Translations under genes and position numbers: made by a program
The notes under the pieces: model-generated
The model's database searches: none
What the model saw: the letters and a program-made list of their open reading frames with translations, nothing else
What the model was told of the DNA's origin: nothing
DNA from: Paramacrobiotus metropolitanus
Lineage: Eukaryota > Tardigrada > Eutardigrada > Parachela > Macrobiotidae
Assembly: GCF_019649055.1 (NCBI RefSeq)
Contig: NW_026570314.1
Span: 496,001 to 560,000, forward strand
Direction of reading: 5' to 3'
DNA length: 64,000 nucleotides
In this document: one piece after another, positions 37,101 through 61,303 of the stretch
Numbering within the stretch: the first letter of the stretch is position 1
How the letters are laid out: each line of letters opens with the position of its first letter

Positions 37101-40100
37101 TTTTAATTCTTCCAGTTTTATTACGCAATTTAGTCAGTTCAGCGTTAAGCGCACTAATTTCAATTTCGATACTCGTATTACGGCTGTTTAACGCATGACA
37201 TATGCGATTCGCGTTGCTGTACTTCCTTTGAAGTGCAAGCGCGGTATACAGAGATGCCCAAGCAATCTCTCTCAGTTCATTAACATTCATTTCGTTATCA
37301 ATTCTTACATCCCAGTTTTCAATTGCTGCTTCAATTCATTAGCCGAAAACCTTCTTAAATTATTATTAATGAATTCATAATATGTTTGAACTTCCGTTTA
37401 CGGCACTTGACATTTTAGTAACGTTTTTTTTTGTGGAGGCCTTATTTTTCAAACCGGTCAAGGGAAGGAGCTTATTACGGAGGAAGGGGGGCTTGTTATG
37501 GGAAAGGTGCAGATTTCAGGGTTACGGTGGATGTAATTTCCGAAGCGAAACAAAGAAGATACTGTATGAAAGTGTGCTGCATCCAGAAACAGCACCCAGA
37601 TTTTGATCCAAGGGTGCCACGCCTCGATTCCAGCCGTAAAACTTGAAGAGTTTTCCGACATTGATCTGAACGCATTTGCTTCATTCAAGGCCAACAGGAA
37701 GTTTCGACCTAATAATTTTCACAGTTTTGCGATTGTTTAACCGGTAACGCTCTAACTGATTTCGCACGCGATACAGTTGCTCTACTAGATAAAAACCTTG
37801 TTGAAAGAAGGTCTTTTTGACCACTGGCCCATTACAGACGCCAGAAGGTCATGAACTATTATTAAACTAATTATGATTACGGTACCTACTACCTTGCTAT
37901 GTGCTATACAGTGTGTAAAAGAATAAAGCTCAATTTTTGTTCAATAATGTCGGAGCGAAGCGGAGGTCCTCTATGTTCACGAATACGGGACTTTCTGTCA
38001 CGTCGGTCACATCGGTCACGCACAGATAAAGTATTGCGCAATCGTAAATCCCCAAATGACTTAAGGTGACCACTCCGTAAAGGCGTAAACTACATTTCCC
38101 TACCGTTTACTCCGCAGTCCGCACGCTGCCTTTTGCACTACCCTTTATTCCCTGTACTACCATTTCGGGCACTACCTTTCATTTGGGAAACTATCAATCC
38201 ATGCTACCGTTAGCGTTGAGATTGCCTTTATGGAATAGACTAAGCGAAAGCATCTTATTGCAGTAAAGCTTTCAAAATAAAAAAACGAAAAAGCGGCACC
38301 TTGCAAAGCTTCAAACGCTGCAAGGAAAAACCGACACACCGGCGCTCGATGTTGCTTACGTTAGTTACGTATAGGTAACTGCTGATAAGATTCTTTAAAT
38401 TAAGCAGTAGTTGTAGCTGTTAAAAAAAAACTTTGATTCCCGAAATAACGGTGATGTGAAGAAACTGAAAAAGGTCGTGCATGTGCACGCAGATAAAGGG
38501 AAAATTAGCCTTCGGAGTGGTCTCCAGAACTTAAATACGCATACACAATGTAATTTATTACTACAGTTTATGTTACACGTGTATAATACACTGTAATATA
38601 TACTGTAGTAATAAATTTTTGTGATACACAGAACTACGTACGATTCATTATGTATATCGTCTTTTCTATAATCTATCACACGCGGGTTCCACCACGCGCG
38701 GGTTACGGCGGGTAGCTTCTTTACCGTACCGTACCTACTACCTTGCTATGTGCTATACAGTGTGGTGCTATACAGTGTGTAAAAGAATAAAGCTCAATTT
38801 TTGTTCAATAATGTTTTCATTTTCCGTGTTGCGAAATCTTGTGTAATTCACATTGAGCAAAACTTGTATGTTAATGGTAACGTATGGTAGCTGTAGAAAA
38901 AAATTCCTGCCCGAAACTGTGCTCGATTAGACCTCCGAACAACGTGTTTGTCCCACAAACTTGTATGTTAAGCGGTATATCCCGTTTTGAGAATGATTGC
39001 CTGGCTAAAGCAACCTCCAGTTATTATTTTAAAAGATGAGATATGAAATCAAAAATTAGGTAAAAGCGGTGCACTTATTTGCCGGATACCTAGTACACAG
39101 CTAGGCGGAGAGTTGGTATTGTTTTCCTTCAGTTTGAAATGTCTTCCTCCAAAAAGGTTTTCCTCCAATTTGACAGTACATTGCAAAATGCCATGGACGC
39201 TTGGCGGAGCTGGATTGCTGCGTGATATCTGTACTTTTTGCAAGAGAACGGATTGCCAGACACCTTTAATTTAACCTTTCTGAATTATGGCAGCAACAGA
39301 ATTTATAAGTAGATTTTGAAAGGGCAAAGGCAATCGAGGTAAAAGGGTCGAGCCGCTGCTTTGGAACCCGCGTGTGATAGATTATAGAAAAGACGATATA
39401 CATAATGAATCGTACGTAGTTCTGTGTATCACAAAAATTTATTACTACAGTATATATTACAGTGTATTATACACGTGTAACATAAACTGTAGTAATAAAT
39501 TACATTGTGTATGCGTATTTAAGTTCTGGAGACCACTCCGAAGGCTAATTTTCCCTTTATCTGCGTGCACATGCACGACCTTTTTCAGTTTCTTCACATC
39601 ACCGTTATTTCGGGAATCAAAGTTTTTTTTTAACAGCTACAACTACTGCTTAATTTAAAGAATCTTATCAGCAGTTACCTATACGTAACTAACGTAAGCA
39701 ACATCGAGCGCCGGTGTGTCGGTTTTTCCTTGCAGCGTTTGAAGCTTTGCAAGGTGCCGCTTTTTCGTTTTTTTATTTTGAAAGCTTTACTGCAATAAGA
39801 TGCTTTCGCTTAGTCTATTCCATAAAGGCAATCTCAACGCTAACGGTAGCATGGATTGATAGTTTCCCAAATGAAAGGTAGTGCCCGAAATGGTAGTACA
39901 GGGAATAAAGGGTAGTGCAAAAGGCAGCGTGCGGACTGCGGAGTAAACGGTAGGGAAATGTAGTTTACGCCTTTACGGAGTGGTCACCTTAAGTCATTTG
40001 GGCGATTTACGATTGCGCAATACTTTATCTGTGCGTGACCGATGTGACCGACGTGACAGAAAGTCCCGTATTCGTGAACATAGAGGACCTCCGCTTCGCT

Positions 40101-42910: not shown

Positions 42911-45900
42911 CTATACACAGCAGTATACGAAACGTAAAGTATACTTGCTTATTATGTAAAATTATGCATCGATACTAGAGTATTTGTAGTGCAACTGGTT
43001 TTCGCAAAAGGTTTCGCTTGGCCCAGTGTAAAAGTAAATAGCAGTGGAAGCCATAAGGATGTTACACTTAAATAACAACATCCAGGCAGTAAAGGTTTGC
43101 TTTATAAGTTTTCTTCTGAAGCGCAAACTTTTCGTTCCCTTTTCAGTTTTCAACCATCAGATGCACCAGTTACAACTTACAACCTCCCTAACTGACAAAC
43201 GGAAATACCAATACCGTGCAAATCAATTTGCATAAAATTTTAAGAATTATTGAAATACAAATAATGATACTGAAATAATAATAATAAGTAGTAGTAATAA
43301 TACTAATAAATAATACTAATAAATAAATCTAGATAATCCTAATACCATTGATAAACATTTTGTGTGTATTTTAAGCAACGAGGTTAAGTAATCATTTATG
43401 TTTACCGACTTCCGCTGTAGAAAAGAACAGCATGTTCAGCAATAATAATTTTGATGCGTGCGTGCTGGGACTTATGCGTTCACGAATACACGAACAGCAA
43501 AATTATGCCATTTTATTAGTACCTGCAAAGCAAGTAAAAACTAAAAAAAATACCTTTAATTCGGAGTTAACTTTATTTAAAATTACGTATGGCGTTATCG
43601 ATTTAGATTAGTATAATTATGTTAACTGGCTAAATAAAGCTACGTATGGGCGGTAGCCGTTATCCATTTAGATTAGTATATGTTAACTGGCTAAATAAAA
43701 GATTAATTAGGCCAAAACAGCGAAGAAAGATGATCAAAATTAGTAGACTCACGTAAAAGTAAGTAAGATTATTAGGTGACAGTAAATTACACACCACCGG
43801 CTCGGACCACGAACTCAGAAGCCACTACTACCACCAACAGAAAACAAAAGACCTACTCTTTGTCGCGGTGCGGCTGGAGTTATCCGCCCCTTGTCCGCTG
43901 CATCCCGTTGTCAGCAAAATTGCTCCCAGTAGCAAATTTCCCATGGAAAATGCCATAATCATGACGACGATGCGAAGTGAACCGCAGTGGACAAACCCGG
44001 CTCGCTGTAATGTAGCGCGTGCACTACCTCACCGTTACCGATTGCCGGCTGGGGAATCGTGTTGTCGATTGCGCAATGGTTTCCGCCAAAGGTCAGTGTC
44101 ACGTGCGTGGTTTAGCCACGCTGCTGTTGCCGGCAAAGAGGCAGAGAATATCAGTATTTTATCGAGACCAAATTTTCCTTTCATTACAGTTTACTGCACC
44201 AACGGTTAAAAAAGTAATATCTTGCCAAATGATTGATAACAATCATTAATTTTAGCGTTCTCTGTGCGCAGTATAAAACTACAAGCTGTAGTTATCAATA
44301 CAAGTTACACACTTTTGAGTGATTGTGCTTGTAGTGTCGGATACCAGATACCTATACGGCTTTTGACAATATATTCCCTCCAATCCTACAGATGGATAGG
44401 TGTACTTGATCGACTTTTGAATGGTTGGCCCGGTTAAAACCAAAAGATGTTAGTGGATAAATTTTACTAGCTAACACAACTAGTATGCAAATTTTTATGG
44501 ATTAAGGTTCATTAACCTAATTGGTTTTAACCACTAAACCTCACGGTCAACCAAAATTCAGCGTACCGCTAAAAATGCACAGAAAATGCCTTATTTGTGT
44601 GTATGCAACTAAGCATGGAATGTTGACCGTTAAAGGTCAAACGCGAAGAACGTGCTGCATAGTCGTTAACTCGTTACAGGACAGTAGTTAAAGGTGAATG
44701 CAAGCTTTTTCTTGAAATCAGCCATTGTTATTGTTCGCTTTTAAAACCGGTGAGCCAGGAAAGCGTCTGTACACTTGCCATACCGCATGACACTTCATAA
44801 TGCAAAGTGCGCCTTCCTTTTTTCTGTTTGTTTTAATATGTATCGTAGTTCGTTTATTACTTCTGAAGTTTTAAACAGCTGCCCAAATAACTGCAAGATA
44901 AAATTTTACGTGCTTGTGCGCGCTGGGTAGGCCCGAGGTGCGAGTATCAATGCAAGTATCCATGGGAAATCAAAATGTAAGTGCATGTGCAATTGGCAAT
45001 TTCCGGTGATCGGCTTGGATTATTTAAGCGATTTTTTGCATGACATTTCGGTATAATGGCAGCTTTGTAAATCACAGTATTGCTTTCCGTTTGTTTATGC
45101 ACACTTGTTGTTTATTAGATTTTTTTTATTTTGTGATAGGGCTGAAGCTGGAGCATTACAAAGAAGCGACGACAAGTACTCATTACATTTGCCAGTAGAG
45201 TGGAACCAGCAGTGTCCTGCTCGCCGTTCATATTTCTCTTATGAACATGAACAAAAAATAATTGTTATGCGTAGATGTATTGTGCATTTACAGTAATTAT
45301 ACGAGTAAATAATCCAAAGCGGTGGGCGAGAATAGAGTAACAGAATGAAAGTGCCAATGACCCATACCGTAAGGGCGCCATCACGTTATCCGTGCGTGCG
45401 AATCTGCGCTGCCCCAGGCGGAAGTATATCCAGCATGCCTAGCATATCCGCCATGTTCAGTCGCCATGGTATCTGCTCTTCGCAACACGTGATACGTCCC
45501 TTACCTGTCGGATTCATGGGCGGCTTTATCGGACCCAGCCGATCCACAGGCAGTATGTAGATTTCAGGAAGAGCACATTCAGGCACTATACCTCACTGCC
45601 GCGGTGGTGCTTCCTGCGTTTACAACCTGAGTCGATTTGCGATCGATCGATTGATTAACGCACGTGTCGGTTTCCTCCACGGATACGAATCACACAACAA
45701 GCCCGTGTCGATAGATTTGTGCTTGTACGCGAAGAGGAAAAACCGAACCTGCAAGCAAATCTGCATGTGAAAATCCATCGCCGATAGTAAAAACCTCACT
45801 TCTGGTGTATTTGCAGTCCAGATGCTTTAGCGTTTGTTAAGCGCAGCCGCCAATCTTTTTTGTTAACAACTTTGTTCCCATAAGCTATTCAGATCAGATT

Positions 45901-46002
45901 GGGACCGCGTACAGATTTTGTGCAGCTAACGAAGCGCCAGATTAATTGCCGTGCACCGGTAAATAAAAATTGTGCAAAGCAATTCTCCTCTGCACGCACT
46001 GG
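42911..46002. other. Mostly non-coding; one possible orphan exon
   Basis: Missing 5' exons of the collar-domain gene should lie here but were not identified. A direct repeat occurs at 43588-43640 and 43642-43700 (gttaactggctaaataaa). A GC-rich minus-strand frame at 45386-45586 (LPEIYILPVDRLGPIKPP) looks exon-like but matches nothing I know. Confidence 0.35.
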
Positions 46003-49000
46003 ATGGTAGGCCAGGCCAAGGAATCCGAAGCGTCAGCCACCAGAAACGCCGGTGCCGGCTTGACTTACATGGATTTCATTCCAAGGTGTCTTCGTTCGGA
46101 TTCCTTGCTGCACTGGCCGGAGTTCGAGCCATTTTCCACGCTGATCGCCCCGGCCAATTACTACCTTCGCCAGCAGCCGCACATGAAGATCGTCACGTGT
46201 GAGACCATCCAGCTGCACGTGGAGGGAGACCACGTCCATCATCCCGACCACAGCGAGTTCTGCCAGGTCGGCGAGACCGCTAAGCCGTTCGTCAAAGCGC
46301 TCAGGATCTGGCTGCTGCACCGCGCAGCTCACGAGTCAGAACAGGTAAGGTATAAGTGTACGCAGTTCACGTGGACATGCAGATCGAGAATGCCGAAACC
46401 GTGGAGAGATACGGCATCCGTATATTCATAAGATCTAAAATAACTGTCCAACAAATGTGGAATCGAAATTTGTTTAAGAGAAGTGACCCGGTACATGGTA
46501 TCAAATTCGGTAATAATGTACAAGTGGGCCTGAAATGAAGTGGGCCGAGAATGCTAGAATGCAAGCATGCCGGGATACGAGGCTCCATACTGCGGGCCTG
46601 CTTGTATGCTGGGCTGCGGTATGCGGCGCTGTGGAAATGCCGAGCTGCGTATATGCTGGGCTGCATACTGCGGGCCTGCTTGTATGCTGGACTGCGGTGT
46701 GCGGCGCTGCGGGAATGCCGGGCTGCGTATATGCAGGGCTGCGGTCTGCGGCGTTGCAGAACTTGCGGTTGCGGGACTGCGGTTTGCGGGACTGCGGCGC
46801 TGCGGGACTGCGGCGCTGCGGACGGTGGTACTGCGGCGATGCAAAATGTATTTATATGGTGTTGCTAGGTCTTGATATTGAAATTGATATGATGCCACTG
46901 GCTTTGAACTTTCGCGTATGCATTTTTTTCGTATGGTACTTTTTAAAGCAAAATGGCGTTAAAATTGAAAGAATTTTTGAATTTAATCGATGATTGCGAT
47001 CAAAAAGCCTTCGAGTTTTGCATCGAGCACGGTCTTTTGAGATCGGAAATTGTATGTCCTGCTCATAGTGAAGAAATACTACGCATTACACGTAGAAGTG
47101 ATCGTTCACTCTTCCCATGGACATTTCGGTGTAGTCAGCCACCTTACAGCAAGTATTCTGCGAAGACTGGCACTTTTTTTGAAGAATCACATCTTCCACT
47201 TCATAAAGCAGTTCAGTTGATGTACTTTTGGGCTCATGAAATTTTTAACCAACGAAAATTGTGTTTCCATTTTAATTTTAGCGAACACACTGTCGTCCAG
47301 GTGTCATTCATGCTGCGAAATGTATGTGAAGCAAAAATAATTAAGGATTTGTCGGTTGCGAAAATTGGTGGCATTGGAATGACAGTCGAGATTGACGAAT
47401 CGTTAATTTTAAAAGAAAATACAATCGTGGAAGACTCTTGTCAAACGAAAGAAAACAGCAATGGGCGTTCGGGGTATTTGCAGAGAAACAAAAGATGCTT
47501 TTATTGTTTTTGTCAATGACAGGGCTGCTGAAACATTACTGCCAATTCTACAAGCACATGTTTTGGAAGGCACACTAATTATGAGTGATAAGTGGCGGGC
47601 ATATTGCCGCATTGAAGAAATGGGGTATGATCACCTAACAGTGAATCATTCTGAGAATTTCGTGGACCCGACTACCGGCGCATGTACAAATCGCGTAGAG
47701 AACATGTGGCGATGGCTGAAAGATTCTTTGCCATCAAATGGAACTACGGATAAGATGGCCGATTCGTATATTTGTGAATTTTTATGGAGAAAGAAGTATG
47801 ACGCAAATCATGATGGTTTCGATAATATTATGAAGCATATTGTGGAATACTGTAATCATGAACTGGACGTTTCGAATGATGAGTAAATAAATAAAAGAAA
47901 GATCGTAAATAAAAGAAATATCTTTGTACTAGCGAATCCGATGGAGTGAGGAATAAGGTTAATAATAAATATAATCAGTAAAGTAGGAATACGATTTTGT
48001 ACGATAACGATGCTGGCCTAACTTTTTGTACGATAAATTTTATACGTACAGTTATTTTCTTTGTGTTTTGCGCTATAGTACAGTACGATTACGAAGTATC
48101 TGTATTGTGCATACTGTACACACTGCACACAACACGCATGCGTTAATAGTGAATACGTGAATATTTTATACGTACAGTTATTTTCTTATTTTCTTGTTTT
48201 CTTGTTTTCTAGTTTTCTTATTTTCTTATTTGCTTATTTGCTTATTTTCTTATTTTCTTATGTGTCTGTACATACTGTACTGTCTGTTGCCTGCATACTG
48301 TACAGACAACACGCATGCGTGGATAGTGAATACGTGAAGCATTATGTACACATAGCACGTACGTATGTCAATAAATATGCACAAGTAAATATGTACAAGT
48401 TGCATACTAGCAAAACTTTAATCGTTTAACTGAGTTTTGTACAATTGTTGTACGACGTATATGTAGCTCAAAATTAGTTTCATAATCCGATGTAGCAAAA
48501 TCGAGATTTTTTCCAAAATCCGAGGATTGATAATCCGTAGCTTATTGCCTTCTTTGAAAAATTGCGAATAGTCTGCGATTGTGTCCTGGAACATAACACC
48601 GCGAATTTTAGCACTTTGGTCTGCTATATCGAAGGAGAGGAACTCTCCAGCCTTTCCGTCTTTGAACCATTTCGTGGGTCCTTTTACATTTGAGATGACC
48701 CCATCGATCGTACAGCTAGCAATAAAAATATTTAGTCAGTTATCTCCAATCTATATTGTGGATCGTGCTATGTTCTAAACAAAAAAACAATAATTCTTAA
48801 TTTTATTAATAATTTCAAAGTAATTTCTGCATTGATAATAATAGTGATACTAATTAATGTTATGTTTTAACAGCAGTCGGTTAAGTGTATTGTCATGGTG
48901 CAGACCGACAGCATTACTTGGCTGATTCCAGATTCAGTTCGATAATCAACATTTCTTTCGACGTGCGAAAGTTTTCTCGTTTAATGCCAATCGGTTCCCA

Positions 49001-52000
49001 TTCATCTACCATTTTTTGAATTCTGTCTGCGGCGGTATCGAGTAGTTGGAAACTTTGAATGAACAGAAATTTTCTAGAAAATTATAGCGGCCGTTATTAT
49101 AGTTTCTGAACAGAACAGTTATTAAAGGATTGTAAATTTGTTATAGAAGTTTATTGTTATCTTACTCCGGTGAAGTGTGAATCACGCTGACGTTTATCAG
49201 TTTTGCGACTTTGGGAAGAACTGCTGCTTCGATTAAAGTATTTAGACTTCTGTCGATCTGGACATCTGCAGAAAACATGTCTGTGTAAATATTATCAAAA
49301 ATACGAAAATCAGTAAATAAATATTATCAATATTGCTTCCGCACTCGATGTTAAATTAAATGCGTCCTGTATTGTTAACAGCCATGTTCCGTTAATGTGC
49401 CGTTTATGGCGTACGATGACCAGATCGCTTTGTAATACGTCCCCGTTTATGATTTGCTGCAAATACACATAATTTTAGTATGAAGGTGTTTTTCTTACGA
49501 GTATTCTAATGAATATATTTATTACGAGAATAAACCTGTATGACAGGCGTCTGGTTAGAAGGCAAAGCCGTGCACGATATGTCTTCTTCATCTGGTAGAT
49601 TGATATCCTCGAGAGAAATATTCATTTTGGCAGCTTCATTCTATAAGTATATTTTTTCCGACCAAAGATATGGTGCTTGAAACACTTCATAACACTTCAC
49701 TTGAAACACACTTGAAACACTTCATGAAACACTTCCACTAGCATAAATTTCATGTAGATCATCAAGAATTCTATAATTTGTTGAGTGACCTTTAAGAACT
49801 AATTGTCAAGGTTACAAGGGAAGATATTTGAGTGCAGCGATAAGTACTTATATGAATACAGTAGTACTACAAGCATTACTAAATGTACAAAATGCACGTA
49901 TTGCAATGTTTAAAGCTTACGTTAGGCAAAGCAGTTGATACTTGAAACGAAGAATGTATCAATTCCATGACTTGACGTTCCAACATTGTGATTGTGTATG
50001 TTGCAAATTTTCCACAGGAAGCAGATTTGCAAACAGAGTCAGTACAACGAAATTGCAGGGATGTGCTTCCATCCACGTGCACAAAATAAACATTGTTGTG
50101 TTTATGCCTCTTTTTGGCAATAAGGCAATGCTGTTGTCCGCGAGTAATACAAAGCAACACATCATGTTTTTTTGAAAACTGCATCGAACCGAGCAGTAGA
50201 TTACGATAGTTTTCTGACCATTTGATTAATATCTGAATAAAAGCCTTACAAATATCAGATGAAAAATTCGCTTGTCCAAGCGCACTGACTGCATCAAAAT
50301 GTAAGTCGTGTGTTTTTGATTGCCCTGATATCTACTGCCACAAATCAAAGACTGCATAAAAATCAAATAATTACATTTGATTTGTCCACATTCTGTCGTA
50401 AGGTTATGGAGTACAAAATTATTGGTCGCGCCTTTCTTGTTGCACATGAACATGCGGAAATTTTGATTTCGACTGTAAACAGATAAATCCACGCAGTCGA
50501 TGTATGTGATATTTAAAAGATCAGCTTTAAGTTCGTTCGCTAAACTTTTGTGTTCTTGATTTCCAGCTGCTAAAATGGCAGGCCAAATTAAATGATAGCT
50601 TTCTTTGCGATCAGTAGTAGCGTCAAGCACAATAACTTTGTGCGACTTCTTTTTCAATCCGATGTATTCGATGATTTGTTTCAGTAAAGTCAGCAGTAAT
50701 CTGCATTTAATTGTCTGCGGGTAAACAAGCTCGATATCCATATAAAACTTGCAGTAATAGCCAGGTAAAAGAATTTCATAAAAAGATCGTTCGGACGGAT
50801 TTCGTGATAAAAGTAATGAATACATCTCAGCTTGCGTACAAACAAGAAACTTTCTGCATCCGCTGGTCAGAATTTGTTCGGCAAATACGTGTTCGCCATC
50901 TTTAAGATGATGAATCGCATGTTGCAACTTAGAGTACCACAACATGGTTATTTGTCTTTGCGGAATTGTCACAGCGCAACAGCTTAATCAGCTTCTGCTG
51001 TATGTACAATATGCAGCTGATCTGTGTATCGTACGAAGAAAAACTACGTATTTGCAGTGGCTATGATAATGTAGTTACTGTACGTGTAGCGTAGTCTAGC
51101 GGTTACGTTAATGTAGGATAGAGATAATGTACGTACTTATTAAATGAGGCGGAAAATCTGCTCCTTGATATCAGCATATAATTGTGCTTGTGGAATTTCG
51201 GCATTCATAGTCTATAATTCCAAAGTATAGGTTTTAGTCCGATTTGTTATTGACGTGCAGTGCGCACCACCGCAGGTCTGCATAATTATGATAATTATTA
51301 TGATTTTCGTATTCTCTATGACGATATTAACTATGATTTCGTATTTGGACTATAGCATTTCGATTAATATTGTTATTGAATTACCATAATAATACTGGGA
51401 ACCGGAAAGCACTTTCCACTGAGCCATGTATCGTAAAGTTCATTAAGCTTTGTAAGATACGCCTAAAATGGACATTCATATAATATGACCTTTTATAAAC
51501 TTCCAATTAAATTGCTGTGCAGTTCGATGAAGCTTCTAAAATTTGAGTGACCTTTGTGATGCAACTTTCTTCTTCTCGTCCGCGGCAAAGAATTCGTTGT
51601 TGCAAAGTTTCAACCGAAGCTTTGAGATAAATAATCATTGTCACTGGCAGGTGTTTAGCCGAGTAATTTTGAAATAGTTCGTCAAGCTTTTCGTACTCCA
51701 CATTCTCCAGCAGTTCGCTTAAAACGTAAAGTAGGTGTTTAAAATAAGTATGCTTACTACAATACTTTCAAATGTGTTGTACCTCGAGCGCAGACTTTCA
51801 GTAAAAACGTAACGCGCACTGAAAATTGATCTTTCAAATACAGTAATTGTTTCGGTGGCAAGATTTTTTGGCGGTCCATCATGCTTTGCATAACCAGCTT
51901 TTGAAAGTCAAAGCCGTATTTGCGTGGATCTTTGTACATTAGATCCTGAAAATATATGTGAGCGAACTGAATTACATATTTATCTACTAATTATTTGTCT

Positions 52001-55000
52001 GCAGGTTAACCAGCAAATTTCGGTTGTCTTTCGTTTTCCAAATTTCAACTGGTTCTTCAAAAGCCTTAAAAGTAATGAACAATATTAGATTTACAGATAA
52101 AAAAATTACAGACAAATTAAATTACTTGAATACGGCAGTCTGCTCCCAGATATTTTATGAGATCTGTTTTCCCGCATCCAATATTTCCCTCGATAATAAT
52201 CTGCATGGATGAGTTATATGAAGACAGTGTTGTCGAGACAGTTTTACAGTGTTGTCGAGTCAACTTGCCACCTTTTTTTTCAGTGAGTCGTATCCGATTA
52301 GCATACAGCTTACTGTAATACGTAGTACTGGTGGTACATAATACTGATAGTACCGATGTACTTAGTACTACTAATAGTACTTGTTGTTGTTGTTGTTGTT
52401 AGGATTTTACAAAGTATTCTGTATTTATTAATAGCCAAATTACTATATCCAAGGCGAAAGCCGCTGCGGCAGCTGCGACCTATTGTACCAATGCACACCA
52501 ACGTGCATTTGTTAAAAGTAGGTTATAATTAATACAGCACTGGAAAAGGTTAATTAGTTTTCTTAACTACACCAGCAACTACTCGTTAACTGAAAATGAA
52601 CTCTTCATTGAAAGGAAAGTTGTCCGCCGTATCGAAACATGAGGCTAAGTTCGTGCAGGAAGTCTGCATTAAGAATTTTAGCCACCAGGTTGAAGACTAC
52701 GTGTCTGGTGATTTATTGAACTGCATAATCTACCATGCTCAGACCAACAGAACAAAAGAGATGGCTGTTTATGGTTCGTTGTTGGCTACAACAGCAACAA
52801 TTTCCGCAGAGAAAGTTCTGTTGCAAATCACAGAGAACTACAAGAAACAATGCCCAGCCATTAACTTGCTTATTGTTTGCAATCCGGGGGAGGAAAAAGC
52901 ACAGCTTTGCAGGACTACTGTACAGACTTTCTGGATGCAATTTCACAAAAAAAGAACAAGAAGTTCTATGATAATCCGCATACATTTGGAGGTAACAGAT
53001 TTGTGTTTATAAATGGACATATACAATAATTATCCATATACAATAATTATTATTCATCACAATATTTCTTTTAATTTTGTACACCATTAATTTTAATTTT
53101 GTACAGTTTAAACACGCCACTGTTTACACACACACTTCTACACTAACGAACGCACTTTCACAAACTATAACTTTGTTTTAGCTTATCGTACATTTCTTGC
53201 CGACACCAAAGGATTTGGTTCTGTCATAGCTGACGAAATAGCGGGAACACTCGGTACACTAACATTGGCAGAGGAAAACGCAGCAAGCCTGATGAACAAA
53301 GTTTGGGGAGGACAAAGCTTAAACGTGTCGTATAAAACAGCAGGATCGTTGAAGCTGCCTCGCAGTTCGTCTGCGTTTTTCGGTAGTTTGCATCCGCAGC
53401 CATTCTGTAATATTCTTAAATCTTGGACAGCCGGAAACGGCTTGGAAGACCGGTTGCTGGTCACTGCAGTCGATAACATCGTTACTGATATTCCGGAAAG
53501 CAGAGAAGCAAAACAGCGTCTGCCAAAGCCGGTGGTTGACTTGAAAGAAATGTTTATTAAATTGTATGAATATTTGGACAAACATCCTGGCTTATTACTC
53601 ACTTATTCGGAAGAAGCTTTCGAATTTATTGCGAAAATATCTTCGGATGTAAAACGGATGCGCATTCTACACAACCAGAAAATTGCCAACGGTGAGTCAT
53701 CTATGGATAGATCGGATTTTGTTTCGAAGTTGGAGGACAACATTCAAAAAGTTTCAATGCTGTCCCACATATTGAGCTCGTCCTATCAGAGTATGCTTAC
53801 TATCAAGGCAATCATTATTCCCGATAAAGTACCATTGGAAACAGTGCAAAAGTCATACAATTTTGCTGATATCAGCGGAGGTGCCTTCAATGAATACGAA
53901 AACATCAGGCCGGCAACATGTGCTAAACCCACAAATTTCTCTCTTGTTCTTACACCGGGCGAATTTACAACATGTCGTATACATAATGACACATACGGAT
54001 CCAGAAAAGCATTTGTGAGGCTGACAGAAACCGAGTTTTCTAATGCGGCGCTACAAATGCAAGAGGACGGTCTGGGCATTATAAAAGTTTTGTCATGTCC
54101 AACGGCAAAGAAGGAAACGTTCTGTATAAATGCCCCCTGCTGAAATTGACAAGCAGATTTTGATCGCTGCCGGGCTGATTTTCACGGTTTACGAAAGTGC
54201 CTACAACGCGGACTTTGCATTACCACCATCCAAGAAACGTGAACTCTCGGAAATAATTGAGCAACTAAAAAATCAAAATCCTTACAACCGCAAAGCTTCA
54301 ACTGAACGCGGCACCAAACGAGTTGCGCCCGACGATGAATATCCGATGGGAGTAAACATCTATTGACCATCGATTCCTAATACTGTGCACTCGCATTAAG
54401 TTTAATAACTACACATTTACGCTTATGTTACTAGTCGTAACGAAAACGAGTCGTACCGTTAAAATTGCTTCATGCTGTTACCAGAATTCAAAACATGGAT
54501 ATTATTTAAAGGTTAAAACATAAAGATGTCCGCTACAACGACTACTGTCGTAGACACTACTGCCGTATCTCGTAACAGTCCATAAATTCAGGCCTGACCT
54601 TTCCAATACACATTTACACGCTTACCCTGTGTATAGTAAAGAAAGCAACTTCAAACAATATAAATACTGTATATAAATGGTAAGATAATAACTGGAAACG
54701 CATGGTTTTGTTGCTATGCAGTCAGTTATGTAAAGAACACACTAATGCTACGTAGTACTGATAACACTTTGTGGTACATATCATAAATTTGTGGTACTGA
54801 TACAGTGTTGTCGAGTCAACTTACACCTTTTTTTTCAGTGAGTCGTATCCGATTAGCATACGAGCTTACTGTAATACGTAGTACTGGTGGTACATAATAC
54901 TGATAGTACTGATGTACTTAGTACTACTAATAGTACTTGTTGTTGTTGTTGTTGTTAGGATTTTACAAAGTATTCTGTATTTATTAATAGCCAAATTACT

Positions 55001-58000
55001 ATATCCAAGGCGAAAAGCCGCTGCGGCAGCTGCGACCTATTGTACCAATGCACACCAACGTGCATTTGTTAAAAGTAGGTTATAATTAATACAGCACTGG
55101 AAAAGGTTAATTAGTTTTCTTAACTACACCAGCAACTACTCGTTAACTGAAAATGAACTCTTCATTGAAAGGAAAGTTGTCCGCCGTATCGAAACATGAG
55201 GCTAAGTTCGTGCAGGAAGTCTGCATTAAGAATTTTAGCCACCAGGTTGAAGACTACGTGTCTGGTGATTTATTGAACTGCATAATCTACCATGCTCAGA
55301 CCAACAGAACAAAAGAGATGGCTGTTTATGGTTCGTTGTTGGCTACAACAGCAACAATTTCCGCAGAGAAAGTTCTGTTGCAAATCACAGAGAACTACAA
55401 GAAACAATGCCCAGCCATTAACTTGCTTATTGTTTGCAATCCGGGGAGGAAAAGCACAGCTTTGCAGGACTACTGTACAGACTTTCTGGATGCAATTTCA
55501 CAAAAAAAGAACAAGAAGTTCTATGATAATCCGCATACATTTGAGGTAACAGATTTGTGTTTATAAATGGACATATACAATAATTATCCATATACAATAA
55601 TTATTATTCATCACAATATTTCTTTTAATTTTGTACACCATTAATTTTAATTTTGTACAGTTTAAACACGCCACTGTTTACACACACTTCTACACTAACG
55701 AACGCACTTTCACAAACTATAACTTTGTTTTAGCTTATCGTACATTTCTTGCCGACACCAAAGGATTTGGTTCTGTCATAGCTGACGAAATAGCGGGAAC
55801 ACTCGGTACACTAACATTGGCAGAGGAAAACGCAGCAAGCCTGATGAACAAAGTTTGGGGAGGACAAAGCTTAAACGTGTCGTATAAAACAGCAGGATCG
55901 TTGAAGCTGCCTCGCAGTTCGTCTGCGTTTTTCGGTAGTTTGCATCCGCAGCCATTCTGTAATATTCTTAAATCTTGGACAGCCGGAAACGGCTTGGAAG
56001 ACCGGTTGCTGGTCACTGCAGTCGATAACATCGTTACTGATATTCCGGAAAGCAGAGAAGCAAAACAGCGTCTGCCAAAGCCGGTGGTTGACTTGAAAGA
56101 AATGTTTATTAAATTGTATGAATATTTGGACAAACATCCTGGCTTATTACTCACTTATTCGGAAGAAGCTTTCGAATTTATTGCGAAAATATCTTCGGAT
56201 GGATGCGCATTCTACACAACCAGAAAATTGCCAACGGTGAGTCATCTATGGATAGATCGGATTTTGTTTCGAAGTTGGAGGACAACATTCAAAAGTTTCA
56301 ATGCTGTCCCACATATTGAGCTCGTCCTATCAGAGTATGCTTACTATCAAGGCAATCATTATTCCCGATAAAGTACCATTGGAAACAGTGCAAAAGTCAT
56401 ACAATTTTGCTGATATCAGCGGAGGTGCCTTCAATGAATACGAAAACATCAAGCCGGCAACATGTGCTAAACCCACAAATTTCTCTCTTGTTCTTACACC
56501 GGGCGAATTTACAACATGTCGTATACATAATGACACATACGGATCCAGAAAAGCATTTGTGAGGCTGACAGAAACCGAGTTTTCTAATGCGGCGCTACAA
56601 ATGCAAGAGGACGGTCTGGGCATTATAAAAGTTTTGCCATGTCCAACGGCAAAGAAGGAAACGTTCTGTATAAATGCCCCCTGCTGAAATTGACAAGCAG
56701 ATTTTGATCGCTGCCGGGCTGATTTTCACGGTTTACGAAAGTGCCTACAACGCGGACTTTGCATTACCACCATCCAAGAAACGTGAACTCTCGAAATAAT
56801 TGAGCAACTAAAAATCAAAATCCTTACAACCGCAAGCTTCAACTGAACGCGGCACCAAACGAGTTGCGCCCGACGATGAATATCCGATGGGAGTAAACAT
56901 CTATTGACCATCGATTCCTAATACTGTGCACTCGCATTAAGTTTAATAACTACACATTTACGCTTATGTTACTAGTCGTAACGAAAACGAGTCGTACCGT
57001 TAAAATTGCTTCATGCTGTTACCAGAATTCAAAACATGGATATTATTTAAAGGTTAAAACATAAAGATTAACAATAGTAAGCTCGCTAGCGAAAACCTAC
57101 ATATAACTGGAACGGGTGTTATTATATGTAGAAAATGTTTTCCGCTGGCAAATTTGTCAGCACATCACACATTCGCAACCTGTATCAGTTTCACAGGATG
57201 CCGCAGTTTCGTAGGCTACTGCAGTTTTGCGGCCTATCGCAGTCTCGCAGGATGCCGCAGTTTCGCAAGATGCCGCAGTTTCGCAGGATGACACAATTTT
57301 CAGATTGTAATGACTTGATATTCCAGGGTCCCACCCCCCCCCACACCATAGACATTAACAAGTATCCATGCAACACTGTCCCACTAGTGCACTGATGCCT
57401 CAAATTCGTATACATGAACGCAAGCTATCCCTTCTGGGCACTCCCAAACACTTTTTTGTTTAATTTTATAAAAAAGTTTGAACATTCTGTAGCGAGCCTA
57501 AGCGAGGTGATTTGTGTACAGTACGTAGGCGCAAAAATCATTTGTGCGCGCAATGCAACATACTTCGTGAGTTACGGCTGTGAGAAAATTCCAAAAAGTT
57601 TAAATGCGTTCAGATCGATGTGCCAAAAGTCCCATTTTGGACCGATCTCCAGAAAATTTTGCACTTTAAAATTATAATTAAAAATGTTAATGAACTTGTG
57701 GGTCATGCGGAAGGTCTTGTGCACAGGTGCAGCAAATCGGTTATGTCAGCTTCCTGCCCTCCGTCGCTCCCAGCTGCAGTCAAACGCTTTCCAACCTGAC
57801 CCAACAGACCAACGACTGGCTACGCCGCAACCCTCTTGCGGGCCGTATCCTCAGCGTAGAAACGCTGCTGATACGCGGTGTAGAAGGTGAGATAGACGCG
57901 GACGCCAGCGCGTGGAAGCAAAAGACCTGCATGGCCGCCCTTCAAGGCCTCCATAAACAGACCTTCATCCAACTGTACCGCATCTTCTACGAAACCATGC

Positions 58001-59167
58001 CCCACCCCGTCCACGAGGACATCGGCTTCGTGGACTTTGTCCCGCGCATGCTGGAGCCCGGTGGCCTCGTGTCATATCCCCGTGGGGAACAGTTTCCGGC
58101 CGTACTGCATGCCCTTAACCAGTGGGCCAGCACGATGCCGGGCAATGTCCGGCTGCTGAACATCCAGACCCTCCTGACGCGCGCCAATAAACAGGTGACA
58201 GAGAGACCAGTACGATAGAAATAATTACCGTGATAATCTCGATGTGGCATAGATAAGGCTTCGCATTTACGCGAAGCTAGAATCTGGACCTCAGAGGACA
58301 AATTACCATTCTGTTTCCTCCGACGACATTCGGTTTTTCATTCTGATTTTAGCAGTCTCGGAGTTTAAAATTAAGATTTTGATTTTCTATTCCAAAACTG
58401 CAAAAATCAGAATGAGAAACAGAGCGTGAAAGCACTGCCACAGTGCCACTAACGGACATATATAGGCGTGAAGCGGACTTATACAGGCGTGAAGCGCATT
58501 TGTGTAGAAACCATAACATAACCCAAAACAGGTAACAGAGAACGTTCTAGAAAGTACAAGCGAATAATAATAAGACTTAGTACGAGTAAAGATATGAAGT
58601 ACGTAGAATATCGCTAAGGTACTGCTATATTCCTCACAGGGGCAACCCCTAAACCTGTACAATGCCTGCTACACGGATGTGGAGTGTCATGAATTCTACT
58701 GGCGGTTTCTACGGCTGGCCTTCGTCGCACCCGGGAGGAGTCCGCATCGCCGCCGGTGTACGCGTTTCCCACCATTCACAGCCGGTTGTTCGTGGCGGGA
58801 TTGACCCGGGATCCCGGGTGGTATCACAACGCCGAGTTGGAGCGGTTGAGTGTGGTGAAGGAGCGGCTGGACAGGTGGGTGCGAGAGCGGATGCCGGGTG
58901 ATGTGTGGAGACCGTGACCTATAAGACCTTCGAAACGAAAAGCTGGCGGGGTTTGATTCCATGCACACGTGGAACGAGCACCACAATAACCAGAGAAATG
59001 AGCTACCGCGGACTGAGCAGTATGTCTTAGGTTTCCGGGTCTACTTCCAGGAGTTGTTAAGGAAGTACCGGGAGTGGAACCCGCTCGCAGTATGGCTGAC
59101 TTTCGACGGGAGAATGCCGACAAATGCATCGTTGCTTGAATACTATCGTATAATGAACTCTATTTGA
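46003..59167 (+). CDS. Unrecognised protein of four ~95-residue repeats, 11-kb intron and LTR-derived intron
   Basis: Exon A 46003-46344 joins exon B 57727-58194 in phase 0; exon C starts at 58640, also phase 0. The protein repeats one unit four times: YMDFIPRCLRSDSLLHWPEF...ETIQL; VSFLPSVAPSCSQTLSNL...VETLL; VDFVPRMLEPGGLVSYP...IQTLL; YAFPTIHSRLFVAGLTRD...YKTF. Each has F-x-P near its start, a central 'ETLL/QTLL'-like strand and an aromatic-rich end (LYRIFYETM, FYWRFLRLAF, FRVYFQELL). No signal peptide or membrane segment is visible. The family is not recognised. Frame shifts occur near 58730 and 58915; the last open segment ends MPTNASLLEYYRIMNSI and stop. The intron between A and B hosts the transposase and replication-type genes. 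Upstream exons are probably missing. Confidence 0.6.
46440..46540 (-). repeat. Dispersed repeat copy (family R1), partial
   Basis: On the minus strand it carries 'taccatgtaccgggtcacttctctta', similar to 26070-26105. It lies at the left end of the 11-kb intron; a longer copy lies at its right end in the same orientation. Confidence 0.5.
46585..46850 (+). repeat. GC-rich minisatellite
   Basis: Repeats of about 76 bp (ctgcgggcctgcttgtatgctgg, then gcggcgctg) degrade into a short unit gcgggactgcggcgct. It reads open in all three frames, which explains the spurious frames here. Confidence 0.8.
46953..47886 (+). pseudogene. Merlin/IS1595-type DDE transposase with two frame shifts
   Basis: The N-terminal part (VCPAHSEEILRI, PWTFRCSQPPYSKYSAKTGTFF, LHKAVQLMYFWAHE) and the catalytic core (TVEIDESLI, then MSDKWRAY, YDHLTVNHSENFVDPTTGA and NRVENMWRWLK) are typical of ISXO2-like transposases, known in animals as Merlin. 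The acidic residues of the core are present. The frame shifts by one base at a TTTTAAAA run near 47412 and again at a GGGG run near 47472; the piece between lies in a third frame. Either a dead transposase or two homopolymer errors. Terminal inverted repeats were not found. Confidence 0.8.
47887..48424. other. Non-coding with direct repeats and a TTTTCTTA array
   Basis: The segment at 48105-48155 (actgtacacactgcacac...cgcatgcgttaatagtgaatacgtga) recurs at 48290-48340. The array at 48177-48262 is built of TTATTTTC/TTGTTTTC units. Confidence 0.6.
48430..48763 (-). CDS. RPA-like OB-fold protein (partial)
   Basis: The minus-strand frame contains SNVKGPTKWFKDGKAGEFLS, FDIADQSAKIRGVMFQD and KEGNKLRIINPRI. 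This is the strand order and spacing of the first DNA-binding OB fold of replication protein A large subunits. No start codon is in frame; an upstream exon or a partial gene is likely. The C-terminal stretch is unremarkable. Expected role: single-stranded DNA binding during replication (family inference). It heads a cluster with a primase and a nucleoside kinase on the same strand. Confidence 0.6.
48914..49625 (-). CDS. Unrecognised 153-residue protein, four exons
   Basis: Exons 49625-49536, 49456-49345, 49265-49166 and 49073-48914 join with consistent phases (90, 112, 100 and 160 nt), giving an intact 153-residue protein. It starts MNISLEDINLPDEEDI, an acidic N-terminus; the middle has LVIVRHKRHINGTWLLTIQD; the end is LIIELNLESAK. 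Introns are 72-92 nt, GT-AG. No family is recognised. Because the reading frame survives three introns without a break, it is probably a real gene. Its place between an RPA-like gene and a primase suggests a replication accessory role, which is inference only. Confidence 0.55.
49879..50972 (-). CDS. PrimPol-like archaeo-eukaryotic primase with UL52-type zinc region
   Basis: The first block (50972-50226) has the three primase motifs in order: YYCKFYMDIEL (metal-binding D-x-E), KESYHLIWP (S-x-H) and YIDCVDLSVYSRNQNFRM (D...Y-x-x-N-R-x-F-R). The second block (50184-49879) has HCLIAKKRHKHNNVYF and FRCTDSVCKSASC, the Cys/His arrangement of the C-terminal zinc region shared by PrimPol and UL52-type primases. 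The blocks are in different frames, with either an intron or a break at about 50184-50226. A short peptide frame at 51210-51130 (MNAEIPQAQLYADIKEQ) may be a 5' exon. Such enzymes make primers for DNA replication or restart. Host PrimPol is an alternative, but the context is a cluster in an intron of another gene. Confidence 0.7.
51487..52206 (-). CDS. Deoxynucleoside kinase
   Basis: Exons 52206-52126, 52064-52011, 51945 to about 51771, and 51717 to about 51487. The start exon has the P-loop IIEGNIGCGKT; exon 2 has EEPVEIW; exon 3 begins DLMYKDPRKYGFDFQKLV and, after a one-base frame shift near 51860, reads ERSIFSARYVF; exon 4 has DELFQNYSAKHLP, MIIYLKASVETLQQRI and the lid-like CRGREEES. These match the thymidine/deoxynucleoside kinase family. 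They phosphorylate deoxynucleosides to supply dNTPs. A further shift near 51520 probably hides the true C-terminus. It diverges from the P-loop gene starting at 52596. Confidence 0.75.
52378..52401 (+). repeat. (TTG)n microsatellite
   Basis: Short TTG run, present identically at 54936-54957 in the second copy. Confidence 0.8.
52596..54366 (+). CDS. P-loop protein resembling DUF3987/primase-associated helicase, copy 1
   Basis: Exon 1 starts MNSSLKGKLSAVSKHEAKF at 52596 and runs to about 52992; an intron with donor GTAACA and acceptor TTTTAG (53181) follows; exon 2 starts near 53182. Exon 1 has AINLLIVCNPG before a Walker-A-type loop, whose frame is broken here by a one-base deficit in the G run near 52890. 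Exon 2 has FGSVIADEIAGTL (Walker-B-like), VWGGQSLNVSYKTAGS, LPRSSSAFFGSLHPQPFC and GNGLEDRLLV, the order seen in DUF3987 proteins of phages, bacteria and some eukaryotes. A stop after NAPC at 54142 coincides with a CCCCC run; a downstream frame (AEIDKQILIAAGLIFTVYES) is probably the rest. DUF3987 assignment is tentative; a role in DNA replication is inferred from the neighbouring primase and kinase. Confidence 0.6.
54802..57068 (+). repeat. Tandem duplication, copy 2 (2267 bp)
   Basis: Second copy of 52246-54527. It is 15 bp shorter overall through scattered small deletions, including loss of bases at 'gtaaaacgg' near 56202. Confidence 0.9.
55153..56906 (+). CDS. P-loop protein resembling DUF3987, copy 2
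   Basis: Same start (MNSSLKGKLSAVSKHEAKF) and exon layout as copy 1: exon 1 to about 55545, exon 2 from about 55735. Here exon 1 stays open through the phosphate-binding loop, reading CNPGRKSTALQDYC; three bases fewer than the expected loop keep frame but shorten it. Exon 2 breaks near 56200 (SSDGCAFYTTRK instead of the copy-1 reading), resumes at 56301 and shares the NAPC stop (56686). The final segment has two more shifts (near 56793 and 56813). As each copy is intact where the other is broken, at least some breaks are likely sequencing errors. Confidence 0.55.
57195..57300 (+). repeat. Minisatellite, 18-bp unit
   Basis: Five to six copies of 'gccgcagtttcgcaggat'. Its reverse complement (cctgcgaaactgcgg) resembles the gcgggactgcgg unit at 46750-46850, at the opposite end of the 11-kb intron. 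Confidence 0.75.
57395..57680 (-). repeat. Dispersed repeat copy (family R1)
   Basis: Reverse-complement match to 25840-26110 over most of its length; both encode a fortuitous ALPNTFLF peptide. It ends just before exon B of the repeat-protein gene. Confidence 0.55.
58196..58636 (-). mobile_element. Solo LTR (441 bp) with TSD CAGG, acting as a candidate intron
   Basis: Same family as the LTRs at 219 and 34397: starts TGACAGAGAG, ends ATATTCCTCA, and contains the conserved 'cagtacgatagaaataattacc' block. It is flanked by CAGG at 58192-58195 and 58637-58640. It interrupts a coding exon: ...AAT AAA CAG before it, and GGG CAA CCC after it in the same phase. The left junction reads CAG|GTGACA and the right junction CCTCACAG|GGG, preceded by a pyrimidine-rich stretch and GCTAAG as a possible branch site. 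A GT-AG intron 58195-58639 (445 nt) would remove exactly the LTR plus one target copy. The LTR is antisense to the gene. Confidence 0.85.
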
Positions 59168-60076
59168 CTAACGTTCTTGCTGTTGCGTGTTACGCATGCA
59201 GTTATCAACCCGTCCCAAATGGAATATCTACGATGTCTAGTATTTTTTAAATTAATATGTGTATTTATTTCTTTTATTATGTGTATTTATTTCTTTTAGG
59301 CTGATACCAACTGGTGTGTGCAGATTGCAGATTACTGTAGACTGTAAAGAAGGAGAAGTGCTTCTTTCTCATTTTCGTGTTTTTGTTTTATTATGTGCGT
59401 AAAATCGGTATATTGATACGGGTAGTTACCTTGGTGAGCGGATGGTAACATCAGAACTTCAAACTTACCGGCATCAAAACTTCAAAGTTCATACTTAGCG
59501 GCAGAATGACAAAAAATACCTGTTGTGCCAAGTCGAAATCGCACTTGTTCGTATAGTGAGTTATATCCTAATCGGATACGACTCACTTTACGAAAAGTGC
59601 AGTTTCGACTTGGCACCACTCGATTTCGAGTACCGTATATCCAAGTGATGGATATACGGTACTCGTCGGTCTCGTCCTCGCACTTCAGTGAATTAGTGCA
59701 AAGCTAGAGAAGCGCTTGCCCCAAAGAGGTCAAATTGCACACGCCCGCAGCCCTCCGCAGACTGAAATGTAGACAAAAAAATCACGAGAACAAAGCGTAT
59801 ACCGGGAAATTATCCGGCTGTGCCGTAATGCTTTCGCTGTTGTATCCTCTTGCTCGATAGTCGATACAGTCATTAGTTTCTCTGGCTCATTATTAGGACA
59901 GCGACCTCGTCAAGTTTATTGAATGAGATATAAAATTAGCCATTAGTTGGCATCAGCAATTTTGTATTTTTAAGAAAATTTGTGTATAAGGAATTTCAGT
60001 ATAAAACACCATTTGAATCTTTCACACATCCACCGATACTGCATTCTGGGCTTTTGTCTTCTATCTGTACAGTATA
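59168..60076. other. Intergenic with two cruciform-forming repeats
   Basis: 59525-59617 is an imperfect 45-bp-arm inverted repeat (gtgccaagtcgaaa...tttcgacttggcac). 59628-59664 is a perfect 16-bp-arm hairpin (gagtaccgtatatcca, 5-base loop). No gene is recognised. Confidence 0.6.
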
Positions 60077-61303
60077 ATGGAGTACCCAATTCCTGCAGCC
60101 ACGTCCTACAGGGATTCTAAGGGCTTGCTGGTGACCTTTCAGTATTGCATCATTGCGGAGAAAATTGCCAGCGAAACACTCGCGGTCTGCCGTTGGTACT
60201 CTGAAAATACAAAAATGTACACGGCAAAATTTACTGTGGAGAAGCAAGGAGATTATCCGGAAATCCCGGCATCCAAGTGGGCACTGATACTGATGGTTAG
60301 CCAGGAGCAGGGCATTCACACGGCTTGGCTGGAGTGCCAAAATGCTTACGATGAACCCTACGGCCCCTCTGGTGAGGTCACATCAGGTAACAGCCTCAAA
60401 ATTTTGCCCCAAAATTGTGAGACTGCCGGCAGGATGGTCTCAGGTTGTTGTTGTTTGAAGTTATAAAGGAGATCTTATATCTTGTCAAGCAGCAACATCT
60501 ATTCGAGTTCTGGGTACGCTTTTTGCGTAGAATAATTTTATTGTGCTGTTGCTTATGCTGTAGCAGTTGTAAAGTTACTAATGATAACAATGTAGGTAGA
60601 GTTTTGGGTGTCCACATTCTGTCAAACACAAGATATTTTTGCGTGGCTTTTTATGAACTCTTGTTTTAAAATTTAATTTTACTATGTTCTTACAAATTTA
60701 AACATCTCGTGCGTGCTGCGGGCTACCTGTACGTCGTCAAACTGTCCTACCGCCTCTCCCGTCCGGCCATAGAACGTCGTCTATTGCCGCGTCCCGACAG
60801 TTTCTCCGACTGCACTTTGGTCTCCAACGACGGACGCCGATTTCCGGTGCAGCGTGTCATGATGGCGCATCAGTCGCCCGTCTTCTTGGCCATGTTCCAG
60901 GGCTCGCGCTCCGCTGAACGGGGAGCTGTACTTCGTGGATGTGAGCGGCGACATCCTGGAGGCGATGGTGACGTATGTGTACACTCGGGAGATTGCGGAG
61001 GGGAAGCAGCGCAAGGAACTGCAGGAGCTGTGGCGCGTGGCCGGCAAGTATAACCTCGTGGACATGAAGCAGGCCTGTGTGGACCGTTTGTTTGACGGTT
61101 TAAAAGATCGCGACTTGTGGGGATCATATAAATTCGGTCGGGATAATGGACTGCATGAACTGAAGGAAAAAGCGGAGATTGTTTACTTCGAAAGCAAAGT
61201 TAAACCAGTTCCGCCGAAAAAGCGGTGTTTTATTCCTTTGGATATCGCGGTAAATATTGTGTTGGTCGACCCTGAAACCCTAGAAGTATTCAAGGTGGAT
61301 TAA
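60077..61303 (+). CDS. BTB/POZ protein (SPOP/TDPOZ-like), frame-broken
   Basis: A first exon at 60077 (MEYPIPAATSYRDSKGLLVT, then KWALILMVSQEQGIHTAWLE) may be a diverged MATH domain; the donor is probably GTGAGG near 60373. The second block from about 60709 carries a clear BTB fold: SFSDCTLVSNDGRRFPVQRV, MMAHQSPVFLAMFQGS, then after a frame shift near 60915 ELYFVDVSGDILEAMVTYVY, VAGKYNLVDMKQACVDRLF. It ends DPETLEVFKVD and stop at 61303. No good acceptor was found before 60709. MATH-BTB proteins recruit substrates to cullin-3 ligases. It is not closely related to the array at 1-22 kb. Confidence 0.65.

Follow-up and report, generated by a model that had tools for sequence, protein, structure and literature searches.

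What becomes of a gene when a retrotransposon lands in the middle of one of its coding exons? The question is raised by a solo long terminal repeat (LTR) in a 64,000-nucleotide stretch of the genome of the tardigrade Paramacrobiotus metropolitanus (contig NW_026570314.1, C94:496001-560000; this whole stretch is the window, and positions given without a contig refer to it), where the 441-bp repeat (58196-58636, minus strand) splits the second exon of a two-exon gene. The origin of new introns is a long-standing question, and we hold, at a probability of roughly 80%, that this antisense, Ty3/gypsy-like LTR became a seamless intron as soon as it stood at its CAGG target, and that the same has been repeated in other genes. 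In its favour stand a paralogue in which the exon is unbroken, selection on the coding sequence beyond an old-looking LTR, and three further exonic insertions at NAGG targets in unrelated genes. If it is true, an ordinary LTR retrotransposon gains introns by a simple rule, an NAGG target plus TG..CA ends, which should in principle hold for any LTR element and can be looked for in any genome.

The junctions can be read directly. The LTR begins with TG, ends with CA and lies between two plus-strand copies of a CAGG target duplication (58192-58195 and 58637-58640); a first-pass annotation of this DNA had described the element in these terms, and its coordinates stood when re-read and when compared with the ends of other family copies. 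The final G of copy 1 and the initial T of the LTR form a donor GT, and copy 2 is the source of an acceptor AG. Removal of 58195-58639, a putative plus-strand intron of 445 nt (GTGACA..TCACAG) with its donor GT at 58195 and its acceptor AG ending at 58639, leaves phase 0 on both sides, as had been claimed, and the upstream exon part ends AAT AAA CAG in that phase. The pyrimidine-rich end of the LTR (GCTATATTCC..) adjoins copy 2, a branch-like CTAAG lies 23 nt upstream of the exon, and the acceptor sequence is TTCCTCACAG in C94 and TTCCCTCACAG in C319, a second copy of the region. The geometry is general: when a duplication ends in AGG and the element starts with TG, AG|G plus TG makes the donor and AG|G the acceptor, and taking out element and duplication together would restore the exon for any duplication length. 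Separately, the stretch 58330-58423 of the exonic LTR is an inverted repeat (79% agreement with its reverse complement) and lies in a middle part that most other family copies do not match.

We propose that a Ty3/gypsy-like retrotransposon inserted antisense in exon 2 after CAGG, that integration duplicated CAGG, and that the element later shrank to a solo LTR. The last G of copy 1 and the terminal TG of the LTR would give the donor CAG|GTGA, and copy 2 the acceptor CAG|G behind the pyrimidine-rich LTR end; the spliceosome would excise the LTR with 4 nt and bring the original codons back, making an intron without further mutation. The same route may have been followed in an Ig-like gene (C1), a UGT gene (C14) and a serpin gene (C32), where old-looking copies stand at NAGG in mid-exon.

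A chance origin of the TG..CA and CAGG layout is rejected because family copies with coinciding ends and 4-bp duplications occur genome-wide. Searching the genome (170 Mb) with the window LTR gave 66 DNA matches, itself included; the copies end alike (TGACGG..CCGTCA), and perfect 4-bp duplications flank 24 of 27 paired outer ends of solo LTRs and LTR pairs, a 28th pairing having been left out, as its 3' end is that of a different copy. These shared ends and duplications mark the window element as a solo LTR. A longer member of the family (L090) was read over 4.5 kb (C94:489000-493500). In this slice, Pfam matches to RVT_1 (6.9e-36) and RT_RNaseH (3.8e-29) are accompanied by a best protease match of 27.2 bits, slightly below the cut-off of 28.2, and by a weak H2C2 finger, also below cut-off, upstream of the reverse transcriptase (RT); an integrase core was not found in this slice. 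On these protein matches the family appears to be an LTR retrotransposon that is Ty3/gypsy-like. The pol region of L090 runs on the strand opposite to the exonic LTR as read in the window, and the exonic LTR is therefore antisense to its host gene. The slice is a single open frame of 1500 codons, and a weak integrase zinc finger before the RT is an odd order for gypsy: integrase usually follows RNase H there, and a finger before the RT is the order of Gmr1-like elements. The inner LTR junction, where a primer-binding site would lie, on the pol strand reads CCGTCA|TGGCGCCC, and no tRNA for comparison with it was found within the window.

That an LTR should instead act as a terminator or promoter, with truncated proteins made from the split gene, would suit the stop that read-through into the window LTR meets after 7 codons, but the LTR is antisense and the exon part past it is conserved, which makes this account very improbable.

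The family seems recently active. A long element with two LTRs 0.3% apart occupies 34397-42372 on the minus strand between two copies of CCTG (34393-34396 and 42373-42376), and C319 has the empty site. Its CCTG target is CAGG on the minus strand, at the exon/intron border CAG|GTATGT of a minus-strand gene, and in the two nearest paralogues of that gene similarity ends at CAG|GTACGT and CAG|GTAAGT. This 8-kb element has 52 frames of at least 60 codons; in the 29 that were scanned no domain reached its cut-off, and the matches, an integrase finger (E 0.04) among them, were all sub-threshold. One organism offers together an empty site (C319), a fresh insertion (34397-42372) and what would be an old intron.

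The host exon is intact in a paralogue. In C40, the nearest one, exon 2 is one open frame of 324 codons that reads across the insertion point codon for codon and without a break (..LLTRATRH GDPL.. against ..LLTRANKQ|GQPL.. in the window). This single exon aligns on both sides of the LTR and, with 23 protein matches to exon 2 (itself and C319 counted), bears out the first-pass view that the LTR splits a coding exon. The C40 protein had no match among Pfam and PDB sequences, and one sub-threshold Pfam match of a piece of the window gene is not believed. On the plus strand, exon 1 (46003-46344, borders read, 67% to exon 1 of C40 by tblastn) ends CAG|GTAAGG. The part of exon 2 on the 5' side of the LTR (57727-58194) is backed by protein matches, comparison with C319 and the ratio of nonsynonymous to synonymous substitution (dN/dS); the part on its 3' side (58640-58931) is under purifying selection, and its frame is open in C319, with small deletions in the window copy. 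A conserved C-terminal region follows at 58932-59136.

C319 carries the same LTR in the same place, with the frame open on either side, and is 98-99% identical to the window across a comparable 19.5 kb. Insertions of 0.65, 8.0 and 10.9 kb are present in C94 and absent from C319, and about 0.2 kb near 60700 is specific to C319. We take C319 to be the other haplotype of the region, though it may be a recent duplication. In the window copy a small deletion at 58729, some 30 codons past the LTR, breaks the downstream frame, and C319 sides with C40 at the four coding indels that follow the LTR. Among small indels in 42400-46480 C94 is the shorter in 16 of 20, mostly in short runs. Because C94 is usually the shorter and C319 agrees with C40, the small coding deletions after the LTR in C94 look like assembly errors. 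C94 is also mostly shorter at short-run small indels in 57400-59400.

The window LTR looks old. In a tree of 17 LTRs its stem branch measures 0.234 substitutions per site, the longest other tips being 0.218 and 0.198, and at sites invariant elsewhere it differs at a rate of 0.10, with the four other oldest copies at 0.05-0.12. Most of this divergence would have accrued after insertion. In the comparison with C40, exon 1 has a dN/dS of 0.16; in exon 2 the ratio is 0.14 on the 5' side of the LTR and 0.10 on its 3' side, and past a frameshift described below it is 0.20. For the part after the LTR, a codon model that assumes a clock and includes two paralogues as outgroups gives w = 0.062 for the host lineage and 0.055 for that of C40; there the best neutral time is zero, and being dead for 0.05, 0.1 or 0.234 units costs 1.4, 4.2 or 15.5 units of log-likelihood (lnL). 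The part before the LTR is also best fitted by zero neutral time. Both sides of exon 2 thus appear to have been selected through most of the apparent age of the LTR, unless the LTR arrived already divergent.

These fits bear on the view that the LTR killed the gene and that its frames are open since the death is recent, which we consider unlikely. It draws on a frameshift common to both copies, a 4-bp deficit at about 58932 that precedes the last ~70 codons, on the further small deletions in C94, and on exon 1, which looks relaxed on the host lineage (w is 0.198 against 0.068, and about 0.1 of neutral time gives the best fit, 2.4 lnL better than none). The frameshift lies close to the C-terminus, though, and most of the C94 deletions fall in short repeats and resemble assembly error. 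Zero neutral time is the best fit for exon 2 on either side of the LTR, and in three further genes that carry an LTR of this family at NAGG the flanking frames are open. Several of these observations still weigh against a working intron in the window. The part after the frameshift looks relaxed as well (w 0.236 against 0.114; best neutral time about 0.15, 1.2 lnL better), and given the shared frameshift and the relaxation at both ends, the gene may be weakening. To this must be added that 0.234 is an upper bound on the age of the LTR, which may predate its insertion as a divergent copy.

Recurrence carries the argument beyond the window gene. The first-pass annotation had proposed a survey of family LTRs at CAGG targets in coding exons. 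The genome was searched for VAGG followed directly by the LTR start, one mismatch being allowed; of the 36 matches, all listed, six are exact, and four of these six lie in host exons: the window gene and the Ig-like, UGT and serpin genes. All four have a matching GT..AG pair, phase 0 and coding sequence directly on both sides, so that GT..AG borders with the frame kept, the marks of a U2 intron, are found in each. In the Ig-like exon the antisense LTR, which holds another insertion of roughly 1 kb nested within it, would make an intron of 1371 nt (..LFRDQ, CAG|GTGACG..TTCACAG|GTC TTC..); more than 40 of 141 matches span nearly the whole joined stretch in one piece, the exon is unbroken at the same codon in 8/8 paralogues examined, and dN/dS is below 1 on both sides in the five computable comparisons of seven tried. 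The antisense LTR in the UGT exon (377 nt; ..GKQ, CAG|GTGACG..TTCTCAG|GTC..) leaves a join without a gap in both alignments to solved UGTs shown. The serpin case, also antisense (805 nt; ..PTK, AAG|GTAACC..CCAAAG|GTG..), has Serpin matches on either side, the right one at 24.2 bits, slightly below the cut-off of 27; solved serpins align across the LTR, leaving a gap of 3 residues where the parts join, and the TG of the LTR is now TA.

The two other exact sites were not counted as hosts: at C57 (CAGG) the long frame lacks a Pfam match and is gag-like by eye, and the sixth site is at C282 (GAGG). As a control, 16 solo LTRs fetched from non-NAGG targets included none in an identified host exon, 11 being without a long frame, 2 in mobile-element-like frames (by eye, with no Pfam match) and 3 unclassified, one of these with a sub-threshold Pfam match. 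The difference (4/6 against 0/16) has a Fisher P of 0.002, or 0.054 if the three unclassified long frames are taken as hosts. In the opposite orientation, five CCTN sites among the matches listed (100 of 148) gave no mid-exon case: those at C3, C91, C84 and C345 have no long frame (at C84 and C345 one flank was read, and the flanks are shared), and the fifth, C94:530393, is the long window element at its splice site. A CCTG 3' flank at C9 likewise had no long frame. Two side observations concern this family: at C57:848931-859373 (L051/L052) a 10-kb element stands at CAGG within a long frame that is open across the empty site, and at C103:176700-177700 (L003) an old LTR end is followed by AAGG, a possible fifth case whose LTR start was not found.

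The landing of the long element on a conserved 5' splice site (CAG|GTATGT) suggests another course, in which the LTRs entered introns or splice sites that already existed. Coding sequence follows directly on duplication copy 2 in the four cases, and neither C40 nor any of the 8/8 Ig-like paralogues examined has an intron at the position in question (a comparison for the window and Ig-like genes); we find such a course scarcely credible.

Splice signals were scored against introns from nine CCT-chaperonin gene regions, in which 30 gaps between neighbouring exon matches were inspected; 23 with a single GT-AG solution were used, two others having two solutions and five none. The window acceptor scores 7.08 in C319, above 12 of the 23 real introns. 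With CAGG placed behind it, the common 3' end of the family makes an acceptor of 5.86 when the LTR is antisense, as observed, and the opposite orientation gives 0.65. The first-pass annotation had held that any TG..CA element landing on CAGG would behave in this way; as a rule this is too broad, given these two acceptor scores. Nor is CAGG required as the target, NAGG being enough. A further idea, that the exonic copies evolved acceptors above the family baseline (5.86-6.22 for most copies), is not supported by the scores.

At the donor the picture is less favourable, and an in-frame GT inside the LTR (58210-58211, plus strand; CCA|GTACGA) may be used in place of the seam, adding five codons and leaving the seam GT as a passenger. 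This GT scores 4.44 against 2.08 at the seam, and similar ones exist in the Ig-like (3.39) and serpin (5.15) copies. The UGT copy, by contrast, has lost it and meets a stop 15 nt past the seam, so that the seam GT is the frame-keeping candidate there, and the serpin seam donor scores 5.68. Use of 58210 is possible, though we lean against it.

We infer that the spliceosome uses the seam from selection on exon 2 and from recurrence, and both splicing and the choice of exactly these borders are points on which an instant, seamless intron could fail. The window seam donor (CAG|GTGACA, 2.08) is weak, with 2 of 23 real donors lower; GTGAC(A/G) seams are generally weak (2.1-2.4), and GTs inside the LTR, that at 58210 among them, outscore them. 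Both the window acceptor in C94 (2.29) and the serpin acceptor (-0.28) lie under all 23 real acceptors. About 4 nt are missing from the 3' end of the LTR in C1 and in C14, so the second CAGG was read there beside a worn end. That all four host cases are antisense is what a search able to detect only that orientation would return, the control LTRs are mostly younger copies judged by open frames alone, and the uninterrupted-exon comparison covers two of the four genes, the window and Ig-like ones.

The family's target preference may feed this route. Flanks were taken from the best 100 of 160 LTR starts, which after removal of 29 inner junctions and 1 repeated-flank copy left 70 five-prime flanks, and 42 three-prime flanks were chosen by eye from the best 100 of 179. 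Among the matches listed, the duplication begins with C in 41/70 outer flanks and ends with G in 45/70. CNNG accounts for 27/70 (4.5% of window 4-mers), and CAGG or CCTG for 5/70 (0.54% in the window; P=4e-5); 5 among 27 CNNG flanks is close to the number expected from that bias by itself. The C..G preference makes CAGG targets likelier.

Introners offer the closest parallel. As here, the introners of Gozashti et al. (2022, PMC9860276) are related mobile copies that serve as introns in unrelated genes, take all or part of their splice sites from target duplications, which in some cases measure 4 bp, and leave mRNA length mostly unchanged. That paper suggests DNA-based movement for most introners, and the term LTR is absent from its text; our case has an LTR retrotransposon as its carrier, with donor and acceptor both formed at the seam, and the majority of its copies are not intronic. 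Sequence-related copies do occupy unrelated gene positions, in four host genes as putative introns, and are absent at the same site in C40 and the Ig-like paralogues. Since most copies are not introns (six exact VAGG sites among 160 LTR starts), this is not a strict introner family, and it works introner-like in a minority of insertions. It is probably a part-time introner, in which the C..G bias and pyrimidine-ended TG..CA LTRs would turn an antisense insertion at an exonic NAGG into a seamless intron, and reduction to a solo LTR would leave a compact, permanent one. The instant route to intron gain first suggested for the window has gained from the C40 exon, the downstream selection and the three further genes, with splicing itself deduced.

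Transposon insertion into AGGT is an intron-gain model in a 2012 review (PMC3443670), where, as here, a duplicated AGG(T) provides donor and acceptor and coding is unchanged; here the donor T comes from the TG end of the element, and NAGG is enough. That review describes as not understood whether target preference predisposes some transposons to intron gain, and the present family prefers C..G targets, CAGG among them. Evelknievel, in exon 13 of Arabidopsis CMT1 (PMC6238269), is likewise an LTR retroelement in an exon; it is spliced out through sites that derive in part from the duplication, and one of the spliced forms restores the frame. It differs in being a single full-length copy with a GC donor, and the frame-restoring form makes up 25% of splicing incidents, the others (58% and 17%) carrying premature stops. 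New genic insertions of ONSEN in Arabidopsis (PMC12112155) also become introns at once, with cDNA evidence there; that is an experimental burst of full-length elements in a plant, whereas here old-looking LTRs are kept in genes. The term LTR is absent from two other intron-gain papers (PMC12124190, PMC4202315), and in the open-access literature, subscription papers, preprints and later introner surveys being outside the scope, we found no recurrent LTR-derived intron family.

Two further features of the window lie close to the host gene. The 10.9-kb insertion that C319 lacks sits in intron 1 (46510-57399) between copies of a 9-bp duplication, TCAAATTCG, at 46501-46509 and 57400-57408, and holds two near-identical copies of one frame, the first of which matches DUF3987. 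Downstream of the host gene, a BTB-domain frame (60670-61303) is split by a small frame change, at which C319 has two additional bases.

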